Positions 1 to 35,859 of a stretch of 64,000 nt of DNA are shown here, piece after piece. Position 1 is the first letter of the stretch; each line of letters starts with the position of its first letter. A program made the translations under genes and the position numbers. The notes under the pieces were generated by a model. That model was not told the origin of the DNA. It made no database searches and saw nothing but the letters and a program-made list of their open reading frames with translations. The stretch comes from Halovenus rubra. Its GTDB lineage: Archaea; Halobacteriota; Halobacteria; Halobacteriales; Haloarculaceae. The stretch spans positions 124,001 through 188,000 of the forward strand of contig NZ_JAODIY010000013.1 of NCBI RefSeq assembly GCF_026586665.1. The letters run 5' to 3'.

Positions 1-1125
1 GTTTGCTACCATCTCCTCGATATCGTTTGCGTGTTCTTGGGACTCCTCTGCAAGGGATTTGACCTCATCAGCGACAACAGCGAACCCTTCACCGGCTTCA
101 CCGGCACGAGCGGCCTCAATAGAGGCATTCAGCGCCAGCATATTCGTTTGCTCGGCAATACTGTTGATAACCTCGACAACCTCGTCAATTTCTGCCACGC
201 GCTGTTTGAGTGTGTCAACATCACTAGCAACATTGTGTGCCGACTCGCCGACTGTTTCGATGGTTTCGACCGCGTCTTGGGCTGACTCGCTGCCAGCGGT
301 GGCAAGCTCTTCGGCACGTGTACTTGTTTGTTCGACCTCTTGGGCTGTTGAAGCAATTTCCTCGACAGTCGCGCTTAGATTGCTGACTTCTGCCGATATT
401 TGCTCGATATCGTTGACCTGTTCGGCAGTTAGGGCATTTATTTCCTGTGCGAAGTCAGCGACCTCATCGGCTGTATGGTCGAGCTCGGCAACGTCAAGTC
501 GGACCTCTTCAATGAGTGCTTCGACTTGTGTACCCATCGTCTCGACGCCTTCAATAATACGCAAAAGTTTGTCGTCAAGCAGAGTGTCCTCAGTATCGAA
601 GTCAACCTCTGCATCGAGGTTCCCTTGCTGGAACTCCGCCATCGTGTCGATGACTGCGTCGAACAGCTGTTCCAGTTCTTGCTGGTGGCGAGCGGAGTCC
701 GAAATGTCCTGTATGATTTCTATAACACCAGCTAATTCGTTGTTCTCGAAGATAGGTGCAGCGATAAACCAGATATCGCGGCCCTGGAACGTTGAATTAT
801 CCTCGTAGACGTTCGTCGAGTCAGCACTGAGTAGTGCATACTCTTCATCAGCAATACCGACTCCAGCATTGTGTTCATGAGCAGTATAGGGCGCTTCGAT
901 AACACGCTCGGCAAGCGTTTTTCGCGCCTCGTCCTCGTAGAGCATAGAACCCAGCTCCTCATTATCCAGTTCCCTGAAATCAACCCCGAGCAGTTCGATT
1001 GTCTGCGTATCTTGTGCGATAACTTTCCCGTCTGTGTCAAGAATAAACGACGGAAGATCAATCATGTTCAGAACTGATTCGACGCCAAACCCGTCCGTTG
1101 TGGTCTGTGTTACTGCCTCGCTCAT
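1..1125 (-). CDS. Soluble PAS-domain methyl-accepting chemotaxis transducer, C-terminus cut by window edge
   Basis: The minus-strand frame is open from an ATG at 1125 to base 1, giving about 375 residues without the C-terminal end. No membrane segment is visible. The first ~130 residues look like a PAS sensor domain ([27 protein letters not shown]). A long helical region follows, ending in the conserved tip of MCP signalling domains near residues 335-350 ([20 protein letters not shown]), where CheA and CheW bind. Glu/Gln-rich heptads fit methylation helices. I infer a cytoplasmic Htr-type transducer sensing an internal or redox signal through PAS. The ligand cannot be told. Family assignment is secure. 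Confidence 0.93.
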
Positions 1126-1302
1126 CAGGCTACGTGTTCTCACACCTTGGATTAAAAACTCCCCGTCTATTATCAATATTAAAAATGGAAGAGGGCGCGA
1201 GTGTTTTCGAACGGCTCGTTTGGGGACCGATAATACCAGCTCACCGGAGAAACTCGTTCCAAGCCCGCGGTAATTAAATACCCCACTGCATTACAGAGTG
1301 GT

Positions 1303-2205
1303 ATGGAGGTCTCGGTAGTAGTCCCGACACTCAACGCCCGTGATCAGCTTGCGGGCTGTCTGGATTCACTCACCGAGCACGCGCCCGATGCCGAGCGTAT
1401 CGTGGTCAACGGTCCGTCTTCAGATGGGACAACAGGTATGATTCAGGACCGAGACGACGTAGACGTGCTTGTGGAACTTGCGGACCGGCAAGTTACCGTG
1501 GCGCGAAACGCAGGAATCGATTATGCGACGGGAGACTGCATCGCATTTGTCGACCAAGCAGCGACTGTAACACCCACGTGGAGAGAAGCAATTGAGGACG
1601 GTCTTTCAACAGCCGATGCTGTCACTGGGCCAACAACTGCACAGGCAAACGGTGAGGCTGAGATGAGAGAGCCAGAGTCACGAACTATTGCAGGCCGAGA
1701 AGTCACGTATTTTAACCCCGGAAACGTCGCGTTCATGCGTGCTGTCCTCGATGAGTTTGACGGCTTCGATGAGTATCTCGAAACCGGTGGGTCACGTGAT
1801 ATGGCACACCGGATCGCTGGCCAGTCATACCGTGTTGATTGGGACGACAGAATGCGTCTCAAACGAGAAATTGGGACCGACGGCGGGGAGCGGACAACCA
1901 ATTGGAGCTCAAAATATCGGTCGCTTGCCTACCGTCTCGTGAAAAACTACAATCTCCGTCCGACTGTCGTTCGTCGATTGTTGGCGCATGCGGCCACTGA
2001 TTGTTATACCGAACTGCGGGCAATTGGAAACGGCGACACGCGACCATCAGAGTGGCTCCGGACAGGCAAAAACGTCCTGACGAATATTGGGGGCGGTCTG
2101 AAAGCGGGACTTGGTGCACGCCGGCGCGACCGGAGCGCGCGGCGAAATCCGAGCGGTCGGTCGACGCGTGGTGACCGGGTAGTGACTATCTACGACTGGC
2201 GCTGA
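1303..2205 (+). CDS. Family 2 glycosyltransferase
   Basis: 300 residues. The N-terminus has the GT-A opening of family 2 transferases (VSVVVPTLNARDQLAGCLDSL). An ARNAGIDYATGD segment near residue 70-80 and DQAATVTPTW near the usual DXD position follow. The C-terminal ~80 residues are basic and lack membrane helices, so it is probably a peripheral cytoplasmic enzyme using a nucleotide sugar. A TATA-like ATTAAATA lies about 27 bases before the ATG, which predicts a leaderless transcript and supports this start. It is transcribed alone and convergent with the next gene. The acceptor (N-glycan, lipid or other) cannot be inferred; no other glycosylation gene is adjacent. Confidence 0.82.
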   Translation: MEVSVVVPTLNARDQLAGCLDSLTEHAPDAERIVVNGPSSDGTTGMIQDRDDVDVLVELADRQVTVARNAGIDYATGDCIAFVDQAATVTPTWREAIEDGLSTADAVTGPTTAQANGEAEMREPESRTIAGREVTYFNPGNVAFMRAVLDEFDGFDEYLETGGSRDMAHRIAGQSYRVDWDDRMRLKREIGTDGGERTTNWSSKYRSLAYRLVKNYNLRPTVVRRLLAHAATDCYTELRAIGNGDTRPSEWLRTGKNVLTNIGGGLKAGLGARRRDRSARRNPSGRSTRGDRVVTIYDWR

Positions 2206-2209
2206 GTGC

Positions 2210-3016
2210 CTAAGGCGCGAGTGGTTCGATAACTCGTGACGTATTTTTCCAGAAGACCTTCCGCATTGCATCCTCTGGAACGTCGAGTGTCAGGATTTCC
2301 ATGACTGCGACGTTCGGGTGGGAAGCGGGCGCACCGCTGCCAAAGAAAACTCTATCAGGGTGCTCCATAACTGCTCGTTCGAGTGGGTCGCGGTACCTGA
2401 CGAAGCTCGTATCGACGTAACAAGACTCGTACCGATCTAACAGGTCGATAGTCTGGTTTGTCAGTTCCTCATCTAGTGGATATCCACCGCTGTGTGCAAT
2501 AATGAGCGGGAAGTCGTAGGTCAAAAGCGTCTCTGCGATGGTTTCTGGGGGAAAACCACGACCTCCGTAGGTGATGACGGGCCGGTCGACTGCTTCGAGA
2601 GCTTCGAGCACTGCCGCATCTGGAAGGCCGTCCGCGACGGGGTTGAGCGCAAACCCCTCGAAACGTTCTTCGTATGCGTACTGTTTAATCTCTTCAGGTG
2701 AGGTGTGATCGTCGCCGCGGGACCGCGCAACATTCCGGAGGCGAGAACCAGTTCCCGTCCCTGGTTCTCGGACGCCGTTGATGCGTGCAAACGCGATGAA
2801 CGGCCGGTCAACAGCGACACGCGCCACAGCGTTGTTTGCCCGGAGATAGTTCCCCTCACGCGTATCCGGGATTACAAGTGACTCGACGATGCCCGCCTGA
2901 TGCATCTCACGCTCGATTTGCTCCGGATCACCTATACCCCGAGGTCGCTTGCTTTCGTTTGGTTCCAACTCGACATGAACGTCAACAATCCGAAACCCAT
3001 GCTCCAACTCCAGCAT
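2210..3016 (-). CDS. Amidohydrolase-2-like TIM-barrel protein with altered metal motifs
   Basis: 268 residues with the overall pattern of amidohydrolase family 2: an N-terminal IVDVH strand, a central FEGFALNP strand, IIAHSGGYP, and a C-terminal block VFFGSGAPASHP followed by a conserved helix (MEILTLDVPEDAMRKVF). Two usual metal-site features look changed: the first motif has one histidine (VDVHVEL, not HxH), and the final motif has GSGAP where an Asp is usual (GSD/GTD). It may thus be a non-canonical or non-hydrolytic member. The tail ends 4 bases from the convergent glycosyltransferase. Substrate unknown. Confidence 0.7.
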   Translation of the reverse strand: MLELEHGFRIVDVHVELEPNESKRPRGIGDPEQIEREMHQAGIVESLVIPDTREGNYLRANNAVARVAVDRPFIAFARINGVREPGTGTGSRLRNVARSRGDDHTSPEEIKQYAYEERFEGFALNPVADGLPDAAVLEALEAVDRPVITYGGRGFPPETIAETLLTYDFPLIIAHSGGYPLDEELTNQTIDLLDRYESCYVDTSFVRYRDPLERAVMEHPDRVFFGSGAPASHPNVAVMEILTLDVPEDAMRKVFWKNTSRVIEPLAP

Positions 3017-3147
3017 CTATCGGTCGTAACGGCTGGGGGTACTTAATTCTCGCCGCCTGCAGCACCGTGCCATCAGATACCGTACCCTCATCGAGTGATA
3101 AGATTTATGTAGAACTGCAAACGACCTTTTAACCGAGGTAATACACA

Positions 3148-4731
3148 ATGTCACAGTCTGGACAGCGACGCATGGGCGGACAGCCGATGTTTATTCTGAG
3201 CGAAGATACGGAGCGAACCCGCGGCGACGACGCACAGTCGTCGAATATTGCAGCGGGGAAGGCAGTAAGCGAATCTGTACGAACCACACTGGGTCCACGC
3301 GGGATGGACAAAATGCTCGTTTCCGATGATGGTGACGTCGTTATTACGAACGACGGTGCCACTATCCTCGACGAAATGGATATCGAGCAACCCGCAGCCC
3401 AGATGCTCGTTGAAGTCGCCGAGACACAAGAAGAAGAAGTTGGCGACGGAACGACGACGGCTTCCATTCTTTCGGGCGAACTTCTCAAGCAGGCAGAGAC
3501 GCTGCTCGAGGACGACGTTCATCCTACAACAATCGTCGAAGGGTATCACGAGGCAGCCGCGCTCGCACAGGAAGCAATCGAAAACGAAATTATCGATGAC
3601 GACCTTGACGAGGACCAGCTTGTCAAGGTTGCCGAGTCGAGCATGACCGGCAAGGGAACCGGCGGCGTCACCGCCGAGGACCTTGCCCAGACTGTCGTCG
3701 ACACTATTGATTACGTCCAGACCGAGGGCGGTATCGACCGCGACAACGTGACGATTCACAGTCAGGTCGGCTCCGCATCGAGCGCGACCGAGCTTGTCGA
3801 GGGCGTTATCGTCGACGAAGAGCGCTCCAGTCAAGCGATGCCACACTCCGTTGAGGATGCCGATATCGCAGTTATCGACGACGACCTCGAAATTCAGGAG
3901 AGCAACATCGACGCGGAGTATCAAGTCTCTAACGTCGACCAGCTCAACGACGCTATCGAGGCCGAATCCGACCAGCTTCGTTCCTACGCCGAGGAAATCG
4001 TCGCGACTGGCGCTGACGTTGTCTTCGTCACCGGCGATGTTGATGACCAAGTTGTTGCGTACCTCGCCGACGAGAATGTTCTCACGTTCGACGACATCAG
4101 CTCCAGCGATGTTTCCTCCGTTTCGGCCGCAACCGGCGCAGCACGCGTTGGCTCCGTCGACACTCTCGAAACTGAGGACTTCGGCCACGCCGAAACCGTC
4201 AGCGTCGAGAAATTCGGCGACGACGAGTTGGCATTCATCGAGGGCGGCGCTGCCGCAGAGGCCGTGACGGTCTTTGCTCGCGGTGGCACCGACCACGTTG
4301 TCGACGAACTTGAACGCGCGCTGTCGGACTCACTCGATGTCGTCATCGCTGCGCTCGAAGAGGGTGGCGTCGTCTACGGTGCCGGCGCAACCGAGATTGC
4401 AGTCGCAAACTATGTCCGTGAAGGTGCCGCTGGCATTGAAGGTCGCCAGCAACTCGCCGCCGAGGCATTCGCCGACGCACTTGACGTGCTCCCACGCACG
4501 CTCGCCGAGAACACCGGAATGGACCCAATCGACGCACTTGTCGACCTCCGTAGTGAACACGAGGCAGACAACTTCTCTGGCATTATCGCCGCTGACGAAA
4601 CCGGCGTCATCGCCGACCCCGCCGAGTACGGCATTCTCGACCCCGCCGCCGTCAAACGCGAGGCCGTCCAGAGTGCGACCGAAGCCGCGACGATGATTGT
4701 TCGCATCGACGACGTCATCGCCTCGGAGTAA
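3148..4731 (+). CDS. Thermosome (group II chaperonin) subunit, CCT3-like
   Basis: 527 residues. It shows the group II chaperonin signatures: [30 protein letters not shown], and the nucleotide-binding EVGDGTT near residue 95. The usual GGGAxE segment reads [17 protein letters not shown], and the protein ends at DDVIASE without the Gly-Met-rich tail of the main haloarchaeal subunits. Short length and missing tail fit the CCT3-type paralogue. Unlike most genes here it has a short leader with a Shine-Dalgarno-like GAGGT about 8 bases before the ATG, and a TATA-like GATTTATG near 3105. It folds cytosolic proteins as part of a double-ring ATPase. GC and codon bias are strong, as in highly expressed genes. 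Confidence 0.95.
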
Positions 4732-20304: not shown

Positions 20305-21552
20305 TCACTCAACAAAGACAACTCCTTTTTGATTTTGGGACTGGTGGGGAGTGCAGCAGTACTTGTATACACCCGGATTTTCGAAGGTATAGCTCCATGT
20401 CTTCCCATCTCCGACGAGGACACCGCTGTCGAATGCCTCATCGACGTGCGTAACCGAGTGTGGGACCTCCCCGCCAACCCATTCCCACTCGACTGTTGTC
20501 CCTGCCTCGATGCGAACTGCCGGTGGCTCGAAGACAAACGTTCCGTCGACGCCAATTTCAGTTGCATCGCCTGTAAGTACGGGCTCTCCGTCTAGCGAAA
20601 CGATATCGTCGTCGTAGTTCGGGATATCCGAGAGGAAAGCCTCGACTCCGGTGTCCGTCTCCCGCTGTGTCGACTCACTGCCATCGAGGGGACCTGTCAC
20701 GACGACGCTGACGCCGGGAAAGCCGACGAGAAATCCTTCAGCGATATCGGCTGCCTCCGCCGTTGTCCAGAAACTGACCACAGCAGTCCACTCGTTGCGC
20801 TGTGTGACGGTCGTTTTGACGTGGGAGTCATACCGCTCAACATCACCCCGGAACCCCTCAGCCTCAGCTTCTATCTCGTCGACAGGAGAGTCAGAGTAAA
20901 CAATAACACCGTACTGTTTGGGCTTGTAGTCTTCACCCGCGGTGAAACCCAATGTATCGAGATGTTCTGTGATAGTTGCTGTTGGGATACCGCTGTTATC
21001 ATCGTCAGTGTCTCCATCAGTGAGTGGGCCAGCAACCATATCGAATACACCATCGACCTCCGCGAAATAGCCTTTTGCAGTGTTTGCTGTGTCTTTGGCA
21101 CTCCAGACAGTCGCAATTGCTGCTAACTCCTCGTGTTCTTTTACCACAGTCATCTTGTGGGAGTCGTATCCAGAAAAGTTACCTCGCAAGTCGTCAATTT
21201 CTGTCTTGACTGTGCTGTACTCGCTTGTAGAGTAGAGAATAACGCCGTACTGGCCCGACTCGTAGTCGGCCCCGGCCTCGAATCCGAGTGCATTGAACTG
21301 CTCGATAATCGACTCCTCAGGAATTTTAGGCGTTTCTTTCGCAGGTGTTTCAGTGGAGTCATCGCTTTTTTCGGTCTGTTTGGGCGTCTCAGTTGCGGTT
21401 GCCGTCTGTGTTGGCTCAACCGTCTCCTGGTCACCCTCATCAGAATTACTGAGACAACCAGCTATCGCGGCCATCGCAATGGTGCCACTGGCAAGGAATG
21501 TACGTCGTGTGCTATTGGTACTTCGAGACACGCCTCTCTCATCACCATCCAT
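20305..21552 (-). CDS. Tat-exported blue-copper (halocyanin-like) lipoprotein with duplicated domain and Gln at the axial position
   Basis: 415 residues. The leader has a twin-arginine motif (TRRTFLASG) and lipobox (AIAGC), so it is a lipid-anchored exported protein. A Thr/Glu-rich linker leads to two tandem ~95-residue repeats (QYGVILYS...AGPL and QYGVIVYS...TGPL), then a type I copper domain (VEWEWVGGEVPHSVTHVDEAF ... YKYCCTPHQSQNQKG; quoted in parts). Cu ligands His, Cys and His are present, but the residue 5 after the second His, normally Met (PHKALGMKG in the halocyanin at 34660), is Gln, as in stellacyanins. The promoter carries a DtxR-type palindrome shared with the divergent haem monooxygenase, suggesting iron control. 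Confidence 0.88.
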   Translation of the reverse strand: MDGDERGVSRSTNSTRRTFLASGTIAMAAIAGCLSNSDEGDQETVEPTQTATATETPKQTEKSDDSTETPAKETPKIPEESIIEQFNALGFEAGADYESGQYGVILYSTSEYSTVKTEIDDLRGNFSGYDSHKMTVVKEHEELAAIATVWSAKDTANTAKGYFAEVDGVFDMVAGPLTDGDTDDDNSGIPTATITEHLDTLGFTAGEDYKPKQYGVIVYSDSPVDEIEAEAEGFRGDVERYDSHVKTTVTQRNEWTAVVSFWTTAEAADIAEGFLVGFPGVSVVVTGPLDGSESTQRETDTGVEAFLSDIPNYDDDIVSLDGEPVLTGDATEIGVDGTFVFEPPAVRIEAGTTVEWEWVGGEVPHSVTHVDEAFDSGVLVGDGKTWSYTFENPGVYKYCCTPHQSQNQKGVVFVE

Positions 21553-21554
21553 AT

Positions 21555-21568
21555 TTAGGTATGCCTAA
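21555..21568. promoter_or_regulatory. DtxR/IdeR-type operator (TTAGG-N4-CCTAA)
   Basis: TTAGGTATGCCTAA is a near-perfect palindrome just upstream of the copper protein start; a TTAGG half-site recurs at 21596-21600. The pattern matches the site recognised by DtxR-family metal regulators (SirR/Idr type in haloarchaea). It lies between two divergent genes, one a haem-degrading monooxygenase homologue, so metal-dependent repression is likely. Confidence 0.7.
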
Positions 21569-21647
21569 AAATCAAACCCTGTTAAGAATTTTGTTTTAGG
21601 CCCGCCAAAAAATATAACCACAGGTAGCGTGTTATCCCAAACGCGGC

Positions 21648-21974
21648 ATGATTGTAGTTGCTAACAGATTCGATGTCGACGACGAGCACAGTGCTGCGTT
21701 TGTCGAACAGTTCAAAGAGACCAGTGATCATCTTACCGAGCATGAAGGGTTTCGTGGATTCAAGGTTCTGACACCGGAGAAAGCTGATACGCATGTCTCA
21801 CTGACGTTCTGGCGGTCGCGCGACGATTTTGACGCATGGGTAAACAGTGAAGACTTCGCGGAGGCACATGAAGGCGACAGCCTCTCTGACATGATGAACG
21901 CTCATCCGGAACTCGAAATCCACGAAGTAGCGTTCGAACGAGAGTCGACTGAAGTGATACCAACAGCAGAGTAA
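21648..21974 (+). CDS. IsdG/HmoA-like haem-degrading monooxygenase (ABM fold)
   Basis: 108 residues with the dimeric ferredoxin-like ABM fold. The catalytic triad of IsdG-type enzymes can be placed: N6 (MIVVANRF), W64 (DDFDAWVNS) and H74 (FAEAHEGD); the W-H spacing of 10 equals that in IsdG. The FKVLTPEKAD and VSLTFWRSRDDF segments are typical. It would cleave haem and release iron in the cytoplasm. AAAAATATAA lies ~35 bases upstream, and the DtxR-type operator sits just beyond. Distinguishing it from other ABM monooxygenases rests on the triad and the operator. Confidence 0.82.
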   Translation: MIVVANRFDVDDEHSAAFVEQFKETSDHLTEHEGFRGFKVLTPEKADTHVSLTFWRSRDDFDAWVNSEDFAEAHEGDSLSDMMNAHPELEIHEVAFERESTEVIPTAE

Positions 21975-23431: not shown

Positions 23432-23824
23432 ATGCGAACAAGCCTCAACGTCCCCCAAGAAGTACTCGACTCGTTCGACGAGACCTGGAACGAGGAAGGG
23501 CTCGAATCGCGGTCCCGAGCCGTCCGTGAAGCAATGCAAGAGTACATCGAGCGCCACAACCGACTAGAGGAAATCGAGGGCGAAACCGTCGCAGCGGTTG
23601 CCTTCGATTACGAGCATACGCTTGTTATTGAGGAGCTACATACGGTCCAACATACCTTTGAGGACGTAATCGGGACGACACAGCACATGCATCACGGAGA
23701 CTGGTGTCTGGAGACAGTCTTCTGTACAGGACCCGCAAAACGGATTCGAGAACTGGTGTACCAGCTGCGGGATTTCGACGCTGTCGGGCGGGTAAACGTG
23801 ATGTTCCTCTTGCCCGTCTCGTGA
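23432..23824 (+). CDS. nikR: NikR-like nickel-responsive regulator (ribbon-helix-helix plus ACT)
   Basis: 130 residues. The N-terminal ribbon-helix-helix (MRTSLNVPQEVLDSF, SRSRAVREAMQEYIE) is followed by an ACT-like C-terminal domain. Putative nickel ligands are H74, H85, H87 and C92 (TVQHTF, TQHMHHGDWCLE). The H-x-H to Cys spacing is one residue shorter than in the E. coli protein as I recall. It would repress nickel uptake genes when nickel binds. No nickel transporter is adjacent; an MFS gene is divergent. Metal specificity could differ. Confidence 0.85.
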   Translation: MRTSLNVPQEVLDSFDETWNEEGLESRSRAVREAMQEYIERHNRLEEIEGETVAAVAFDYEHTLVIEELHTVQHTFEDVIGTTQHMHHGDWCLETVFCTGPAKRIRELVYQLRDFDAVGRVNVMFLLPVS

Positions 23825-34659: not shown

Positions 34660-35859
34660 TTATTCGACGACGACAGCGCCTTTCATGCCGAGGGCCTTGT
34701 GTGGCTTACAGTAGTAGAGATACGTCCCGCTCTCGTCGAACGTGTGACTGAACTCAGCTCCCTCGCTGTCGAGGATTTCGCTGTCGAACTCGCCGTCCTC
34801 GTGGGTCACGGAATGTGCACCGCCACCGACCCACTGCCAGGTCACTTCGGTGCCCTGGTCGATACGGATAGCTGGCGGGTCGTACGCGTAGTCTGGTTCG
34901 TCGACACCGGTCTCGATAGTGACGGAGTCCTGACCGGTGAAATCCTCGACTGTCCCGTCGTAGTTGTTGGCGTCTGCGAGATAGTTTTCGACAGGAGACT
35001 CACCCGCTGACTCGCTGGCGCTGGCACCGCCTGCAGACGAGAGTGTGGCCGAGTACTCGCCGTTATCCCAGACGACGCTGACGGTGTACTCGTTTTCGAC
35101 AGCGATTGTGAGGCTGTGACCAGCCTTCACGTCATCGTTCTCTCCGAGTTCGTCGGAGAGTTCGTACCACACACCGGTCCGGTCGAGTCCCTTACCACGG
35201 ACGAACAGTTCGTCTGCGGGCACGGCGTCGCCATCGGTGTGTGTGAGGGTCATGGTTCCGTCGTCCACGTCTGGATCGAAGTTGACAGACGGAGCGATTT
35301 TCTGTCCGGTCGGCAGGAGGTCATGGATGCGCCACTCGCCGTCGACAGCGACAAGTTCGAACGTACCAGAACGGGGTACCTCAGCGTCCGGAAGCACTAA
35401 CAGCGCCTCGACCGAGGCGGATTCTTCTCCCTCGTCGACAGTTTCCACCTCCTCGATGGTCGGTGCCTGTGAGCTAACCTCCTCGACATCAGCCTCCTGC
35501 ACCTGTCCGAAGTTGCCGTCTTCGGCAGCGAGGAAATTCATCGTCTCGATATTCCCGTCCTGCCAGGCAGTGACGAAGGCCTTGACAGTCTCGACTGGGT
35601 CAGTGTAATCGAACTCTCCGGAAGCGCCGTTTTCCCCTCCAGACTCTTCTTCACCAGTTCCCTCATCGTCGCTCGATTCAGTTGTCGAAGTCGGTTCAGG
35701 TGTCGAAGTCGGTTCAGGTGTCGAAGTCGGTTCGGCTGTCGGTGTGGACCCATCGCCCTCTCCGCTCGTGTCGTCAGTCCCGTCGTCATCAGAGATACAT
35801 CCTGCAACTGCCAGGGCACTGGCCATGCCGGTCCAGCGCAGTACGTCGCGTCTTTTCAT
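34660..35859 (-). CDS. Halocyanin-domain Tat lipoprotein
   Basis: 399 residues. A short Tat leader (MKRRDVLRW) ends in a lipobox (LAVAGC), then an acidic Thr/Pro linker containing three 6-residue PEPTST-type units. A middle ~100-residue domain (VKAFVTAWQDGNIETMNFLA) resembles NTF2-like folds. A ~75-residue beta domain and a C-terminal blue-copper domain follow, with all four expected ligands: GGAHSVTHEDG, YLYYCKPHKALGMKG (His, Cys, His, Met). It should act as an extracellular electron carrier anchored in the membrane. It is convergent with ligA. Confidence 0.9.
   Translation of the reverse strand: MKRRDVLRWTGMASALAVAGCISDDDGTDDTSGEGDGSTPTAEPTSTPEPTSTPEPTSTTESSDDEGTGEEESGGENGASGEFDYTDPVETVKAFVTAWQDGNIETMNFLAAEDGNFGQVQEADVEEVSSQAPTIEEVETVDEGEESASVEALLVLPDAEVPRSGTFELVAVDGEWRIHDLLPTGQKIAPSVNFDPDVDDGTMTLTHTDGDAVPADELFVRGKGLDRTGVWYELSDELGENDDVKAGHSLTIAVENEYTVSVVWDNGEYSATLSSAGGASASESAGESPVENYLADANNYDGTVEDFTGQDSVTIETGVDEPDYAYDPPAIRIDQGTEVTWQWVGGGAHSVTHEDGEFDSEILDSEGAEFSHTFDESGTYLYYCKPHKALGMKGAVVVE
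35683..35736 (-). repeat. Three 18-bp tandem repeats in halocyanin linker
   Basis: Copies start at 35683, 35701 and 35719; the first two are identical and the third differs in its last bases. They encode the PEPTST units of the lipoprotein linker, a place where copy number can vary by slippage. Confidence 0.85.

Follow-up and report, generated by a model that had tools for sequence, protein, structure and literature searches.

The initial annotation and the question it raises

What role could be played by a predicted haloarchaeal lipoprotein in which a copper domain with a glutamine at the axial position follows two tandem repeats? The question is raised by a gene in the window (the whole stretch of 64,000 nucleotides that was analysed), whose product of 415 residues the initial annotation had read as a blue copper lipoprotein with a stellacyanin-like ligand and two duplicated domains absent from ordinary halocyanins. 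The features that it noted are confirmed, and its interpretation, taken as a whole, is partly supported. The gene and its parts are as follows.

20305..21552, reverse strand: open frame of the fusion lipoprotein gene, 415 aa (two PitA-type repeats and a Gln-halocyanin domain)
21454..21552, reverse strand: Tat signal peptide and lipobox, residues 1-33 (RRTFLAS...AIAGC in the sequence)
21022..21309, reverse strand: PitA-type repeat 1, residues 82-177 (profile match; invariant YDxH and Trp)
20686..20973, reverse strand: PitA-type repeat 2, residues 194-289 (profile match; invariant YDxH and Trp; AF2 model)
20308..20643, reverse strand: halocyanin-type cupredoxin domain, residues 304-415 (TIGR03102 and Copper-bind; His365, Cys400, His403, Gln408)
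20329..20331, reverse strand: codon CAA for the axial residue Gln408 (the five best-scoring relatives compared also have Gln in this column)

The twin arginines read from the sequence are residues 16-17 and the lipobox AGC contains Cys33; a weak match to UCR_Fe-S_N TAT, under its cut-off, agrees with a Tat signal. The protein thus has the Tat/lipobox combination of halocyanins, and its lipidation is predicted. A Thr/Glu-rich stretch separates the lipobox from the first repeat. It is the fusion of a PitA repeat pair to a halocyanin, in a setting of haem and iron genes, that is remarkable.

The copper domain and its axial glutamine

Residues 336-415 match Pfam Copper-bind (PF00127) at 45.9 bits (cut-off 21.2), and residues 304-415 match TIGR03102 (halo_cynanin) at 88.3 bits, slightly under the cut-off of 93.8, for which reason we refer to the domain as a halocyanin-type variant. 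It has the cupredoxin ligands His365, Cys400 and His403, the latter two within a CxPH loop, and, as the initial annotation had stated, the place of the axial Met of halocyanins is taken by a glutamine, Gln408. Residues 173-415 are devoid of Met. As the only Met residues of the protein are at positions 1, 27, 134 and 172, none within the copper domain can stand in for Gln408, which rules out the alternative Met ligand that the initial annotation had itself considered; since related domains have Gln at the same column, a sequencing error at this codon is also unlikely. The Met-type halocyanin with which the protein had been contrasted is indeed present elsewhere in the window (34660-35859, reverse strand; PHKALGM).

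With halocyanins (TIGR03102, PF00127) the protein shares a C-terminal cupredoxin domain, the Tat lipoprotein signal, the His-Cys-His ligands and the CxPH loop; it differs from them in Gln408, in an extra Cys399 beside the ligand Cys, and in the repeats in front. With stellacyanin, auracyanin and umecyanin it shares Gln at the fourth ligand position (auracyanin 132 and stellacyanin 99 in the tables of PMC517927). However, its copper-domain sequence is of halocyanin type, and its Cys-to-His spacing equals that of halocyanin (3), against 5 for the Gln cupredoxins listed in that source, where auracyanin already exemplifies Gln ligands in prokaryotes. By analogy with stellacyanin, Gln408 would be expected to lower the redox potential relative to Met halocyanins. 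The AF2 model of the copper domain is of low confidence because the underlying alignment contained just one other copper domain.

Across the class the glutamine is rare: of 194 Halobacteria-class genomes, 10 matched the DNA pattern for Y-x-C-x-P-H-x4-Q-x-G, at a total of 16 places that all translate to cupredoxin domains, while the same pattern with Met was matched, at the DNA level, in 184 of the 194. Six of the 16 places, along with four Met places, lie in the source genome, where one further Gln copper domain, part of a protein whose PQQ-like repeats were recognised by eye, escapes the DNA pattern; at least six copper domains of this genome other than the one studied here have Gln. The five best-scoring copper domains compared all have Gln and come from two genomes that are congeneric with the source (probably Halovenus). 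Among 29 aligned copper domains from 20 loci, hand-picked from whole-protein family matches and therefore not a random draw, 19 have Met, eight Gln, one His and one Gly, and all eight Gln domains are from the genus of the source. Being common to the nearest halocyanins of the genus and to other domains of the source genome, the glutamine does not set this gene apart; it seems to have been inherited within a Halovenus halocyanin clade and is rare elsewhere.

The family holds further variants. A lipoprotein of the source genome (C34:327128-328606) consists of four tandem halocyanin domains, all with axial Gln, and a related Gln domain is encoded at another locus. A halocyanin domain of Halovenus aranensis (name inferred) has an axial His (PHAALEHKG).

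The repeats are a PitA domain

In haloarchaea, the final step of aerobic haem synthesis is assigned to PitA. The two tandem repeats of about 95 residues noticed in the initial annotation are matched by a repeat profile at 82-177 (E 3e-32) and 194-289 (E 6e-33). Although this profile was built partly from the protein's own repeats, an independent check is provided by NCBIfam NF007124 (PitA family, 'heme-binding protein'), which matches residues 41-281 with positions 288-536 of its 637 (2.3e-58, 199.1 bits). A complete PitA contains a ChdC domain, the repeat and an ABM domain, and the score remains under the whole-protein cut-off of 446 because only part of PitA is present. Hence the repeats are real and foreign to halocyanins, as had been proposed, but they are not an unfamiliar domain. 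Searched on their own in other genomes, they proved not to be confined to the source, matching 388 of 391 genomes of the class.

Among the matches listed, the repeat-bearing open frames, apart from the one studied here, are about 470 to 1260 aa long. Of 80 loci retained out of 186 relatives, 70 match a ChdC pattern, and the frames of the remaining 10 are 529-1257 aa long. In an alignment of 88 repeats that includes both copies, the Y, D and H of YDxH, a Trp and two Ala are invariant. This Trp, the last residue of an SxW motif, is found in 88 of 88, the first repeat of the 415-residue protein reading TVW there. Both copies are accordingly PitA repeats by homology and by these residues, with at most 45% identity to those of PitA.

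In other respects the protein departs from PitA (the haloarchaeal ChdC-ABM haem protein; NF007124; PMC5746218), with which it shares the repeat domain with YDxH and Trp: it has neither the ChdC nor the ABM domain, it is exported as a lipoprotein whereas PitA is cytoplasmic, and it is fused to a cupredoxin. Moreover, unlike the repeat pair of PitA, both copies fall beside PitA repeat 1 in a tree of 88 repeats, and the clade of second repeats (support 100/99) does not include them. Copying of the pair from PitA was rejected on this basis, with the proviso that the branches of the two copies are long (0.92 and 0.84) and that the tool warns of long branches. PitA itself has two repeat domains in many genomes of the family and in some others, while other haloarchaea have a single one; the extra repeat domain is probably what lies behind the 'inserted region' published for the PitA ABM domain.

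These observations bear on a rival account of the protein, an ordinary membrane-anchored electron-transfer halocyanin in which the PitA-derived repeats form a spacer or a protein-protein docking module and the glutamine adjusts the potential to suit a different partner. Halocyanin domains commonly occur with a range of partners, the source genome encoding many in differently sized frames and the window a second one. Yet unselected spacers would lose the YDxH and Trp residues, and both copies keep them despite their divergence. We regard this account as a real possibility, but a doubtful one, and as second to a role in haem or iron acquisition, to which we return below.

The fusion was seen in one genome and lies in a variable spot

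We observed the fusion of PitA repeats with a copper domain in a single genome. None was found elsewhere among the matches listed when 391 genomes of the class were searched with the repeats, nor, among the matches listed, did any protein outside the source match both parts when 146 genomes of the family were searched with the whole protein at a threshold of E 1e-20. The copper motif was absent, by pattern, from all 80 loci retained out of 186 relatives; among 78 plasmid records with a match, no place covered 80% of the query; and a single-protein scan of genome contigs for relatives of the protein returned no matches. Consequently, no argument for the function of the fusion can be drawn from its conservation.

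In H. salina (name inferred) the flanks of the locus, a RIO2 kinase gene on one side and an MFS-NikR-methyltransferase group on the other, are kept, while the pair formed by the lipoprotein gene and its ABM-family neighbour (see below) is replaced by about 5 kb of other genes, one of them transposase-like by eye. Of these features, the stretches extracted at nine further loci showed only the RIO2 gene; three of the stretches are short contig ends. The kept flanks and differing contents indicate that the gene pair occupies a variable spot. The NikR-like regulator (RHH and NikR_C; 23432-23824) adjoins the MFS transporter gene, in an order kept in H. salina.

Such a setting would suit a recent chimera without a settled function, formed when a PitA repeat 1 was captured and duplicated in a variable chromosomal spot, as would the restriction of the fusion to one genome and the transposase-like frame between the same flanks in H. 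salina. What speaks against this is the state of the gene: 415 codons are open, all of the copper ligands and the invariant repeat residues have been kept, and a palindrome stands at the start codon. The long branches, in combination with the conserved motifs, are more suggestive of an old protein under selection than of a recent accident. We give the chimera only a slim chance.

A divergent gene encodes a putative haem-degrading monooxygenase

The lipoprotein gene has a divergently transcribed neighbour.

21648..21974, forward strand: ABM-family, IsdG/HmoB/HmuQ-like putative haem-degrading monooxygenase (Pfam ABM; N6, W64, H74)

Its product matches Pfam ABM at 1.6e-18 and HmuQ at 1.3e-17, the latter below cut-off, and reaches none of the NCBIfam haem-oxygenase cut-offs. 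Compared with solved structures of HmoB, IsdI and IsdG it gives values from 3e-8 to 8e-3, the HmoB-type chains scoring 3e-8 to 9e-8. Residues N6, W64 and H74 are spaced like the IsdG triad, given as N7, W67 and H77 in PMC5746218. With an ABM fold and an Asn, Trp, His triad, the protein is, as judged from its sequence, a putative haem monooxygenase of the IsdG/HmoB type. The gene has a match in three of 18 genomes of the genus, the source counted. The repeats of the lipoprotein, for their part, keep at most the Trp of this triad and have no matching His, as would be expected of a spacer or docking module.

A palindrome at the start codon is shared with iron-uptake-type genes

Between the two divergent genes lie two related palindromes.

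21554..21569: proposed operator, the palindrome TTTAGG-TATG-CCTAAA (1 bp separates it from the ATG downstream)
21595..21610: imperfect second copy of the palindrome (1 mismatch); tandem sites occur at other genes too

The first, TTTAGGTATGCCTAAA, is located 1 bp before the start codon of the lipoprotein gene. In the source genome we counted 28 TTAGGN4CCTAA palindromes as compared to one for the reversed control. Of 18 genomes of the genus, 17 have more palindromes than control matches (2 versus 8 in the one exception). At 10 of the 18 Peripla_BP_2 genes, which encode binding lipoproteins of the iron-siderophore type, the 14-bp core ends 3-5 bp before the ATG; at the gene studied here the distance is 2 bp. 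Conversely, a site abuts 16 genes at 0-18 bp (a count that includes the 415-residue lipoprotein gene and omits three short doubtful frames), and 10 of them are Peripla_BP_2 genes, a hypergeometric probability of about 1e-20 if 3000-4200 genes are assumed. The palindromes are often in tandem, 34-37 bp apart, at the start codons of the binding-lipoprotein genes, and one cluster of the source genome comprises FecCD, an ABC ATPase, two binding lipoproteins and a DtxR-like gene.

The palindrome is therefore shared with genes of the iron-uptake type, as would be expected of a DtxR-type iron regulon, and the types of genes that bear it suggest that iron is the signal and the regulator of DtxR type. 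DtxR-family proteins have been linked to haloarchaeal iron homeostasis, as reported in PMC11349517. Palindromes also abut genes without an obvious iron role (PrpD-like, RGP-like). None was found near two other IsdG-like loci of the genus, nor at any of the six loci of related Gln halocyanins that were checked. An FAD-oxidoreductase gene also has a TTTAGG-N4-CCTAAA palindrome. For the spacer or docking account, the operator-like site and the haem-monooxygenase neighbour would both have to be coincidence.

A lipoprotein of 845 aa (C36 locus, 1018-3555) contains DUF5059 and a Met-type copper domain, and its gene has two TTTAGG-N4-CCTAAA palindromes at the start, which makes it another copper protein of the presumed iron regulon. 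Such DUF5059-Copper-bind lipoproteins (PF16502) resemble the fusion protein in being lipoproteins with a C-terminal copper domain and, in the source genome, the same start-codon palindrome, but have an unrelated N-terminal domain and an axial Met (PHEAAGM). Copper domains can thus be drawn into the regulon without PitA repeats, which favours a haem-free member of this regulon that works with copper or another metal: a cupredoxin helper, similar to P19/FetP, whose oxidation or reduction of iron would serve ABC uptake while the repeats bind a siderophore or a partner lipoprotein. Nevertheless, the likeness to P19/FetP is a proposed analogy, and the haem-degrading-type neighbour and the PitA origin of the repeats favour haem over siderophore iron, so that we consider a helper of this kind distinctly unlikely.

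Structure and the case for haem

AF2 predicts the repeats of the protein as confident ferredoxin-like folds. In the model of the PitA tail of Halovenus aranensis, both the repeats and the ABM domain have comparable folds, and the best Foldseek matches of this tail are tandem ABM-type monooxygenases, including HmoB with haem. For the 415-residue protein, however, Foldseek and VIA-align return a generic ferredoxin-like fold: chlorite dismutase and ABM proteins are mixed with unrelated hits, NikR, ACT and designed proteins have similar Z, and the repeat profile gives chance-level matches only against solved structures. A fold this generic would also suit a spacer or docking module.

In limited proteolysis of H. 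volcanii PitA, as described in PMC5746218, haem was retained by a fragment starting with AGKPH at residue 322. In the PitA of relatives, AGKPH or AGQPH starts the second repeat, from which it follows that the haem-holding fragment has one repeat and the ABM domain. The putative haem ligand named by the authors of that study is His444 (PMC5746218), which, counting 58 residues from the conserved C-terminus in a relative PitA, is the His of the DGH motif in the ABM domain. The YDxH-SxW of the repeat aligns to the DGH-SxW of ABM weakly (profile comparison: P 0.003, probability 10%). With the putative ligand in the ABM domain and the match between repeat and ABM weak, haem binding by the repeat alone is a hypothesis, by analogy with PitA.

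A tentative role in haem or iron acquisition

Of the readings considered, we find it most likely that the protein is a cell-surface lipoprotein involved in haem or iron acquisition, with a low-potential Gln halocyanin passing electrons; we propose this tentatively, at somewhat short of even confidence. Directly established are the domain make-up and ligand residues, the fact that the repeats are homologous to PitA, the shared palindrome and the presence of a divergent gene resembling haem monooxygenases. The points that lead us to an acquisition role are (i) the NF007124 match, the haem-holding PitA fragment with its repeat, the invariant YDxH and Trp, and the ferredoxin-like repeats of the AF2 model; and (ii) the divergent IsdG/HmoB-type gene, the start-codon palindrome and the iron-type cluster. 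Against it we count the generic fold, the position of His444 in the ABM domain, the palindrome-free relatives and the palindrome-bearing genes of no obvious iron role. No haem ABC importer was identified beside the lipoprotein gene.

The acquisition role could be played out in four steps. Firstly, the Tat pathway would export the folded lipoprotein, which a lipid on Cys33 would anchor. Secondly, to judge from PitA, the two ABM-like ferredoxin-fold repeats may pair into one alpha/beta barrel or form two half-barrels, either of which arrangements may bind haem or a related iron ligand via the invariant His of YDxH and the Trp. Thirdly, the Gln halocyanin domain, with its expected lower potential, might exchange electrons with the bound ferric centre or the respiratory chain, thereby easing the release of iron or haem. 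Finally, when iron is short, a DtxR-family repressor would leave the start-codon palindrome, the lipoprotein would be made together with the siderophore-type binding lipoproteins, and the divergent IsdG/HmoB-type enzyme would open haem in the cytosol.

A more specific version of the acquisition role, which we regard as unlikely though worth stating, is surface haem capture with a built-in copper centre: a PitA-derived barrel would hold haem, the Gln-halocyanin would reduce it, and iron-responsive control would couple capture to the intracellular haem-degrading enzyme. In the portions of the literature that our search returned, we met with no account of an archaeal scheme of this kind.

The fusion suggests haem or iron acquisition at the haloarchaeal surface by a protein of a so far undescribed kind, and its start-codon palindrome, like that of the DUF5059 lipoprotein, would bring blue copper proteins into an iron-type regulon. 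As a natural, duplicated and exported protein in which the repeat occurs without the other domains of PitA, it also provides a small test object for what the extra domain of PitA binds.
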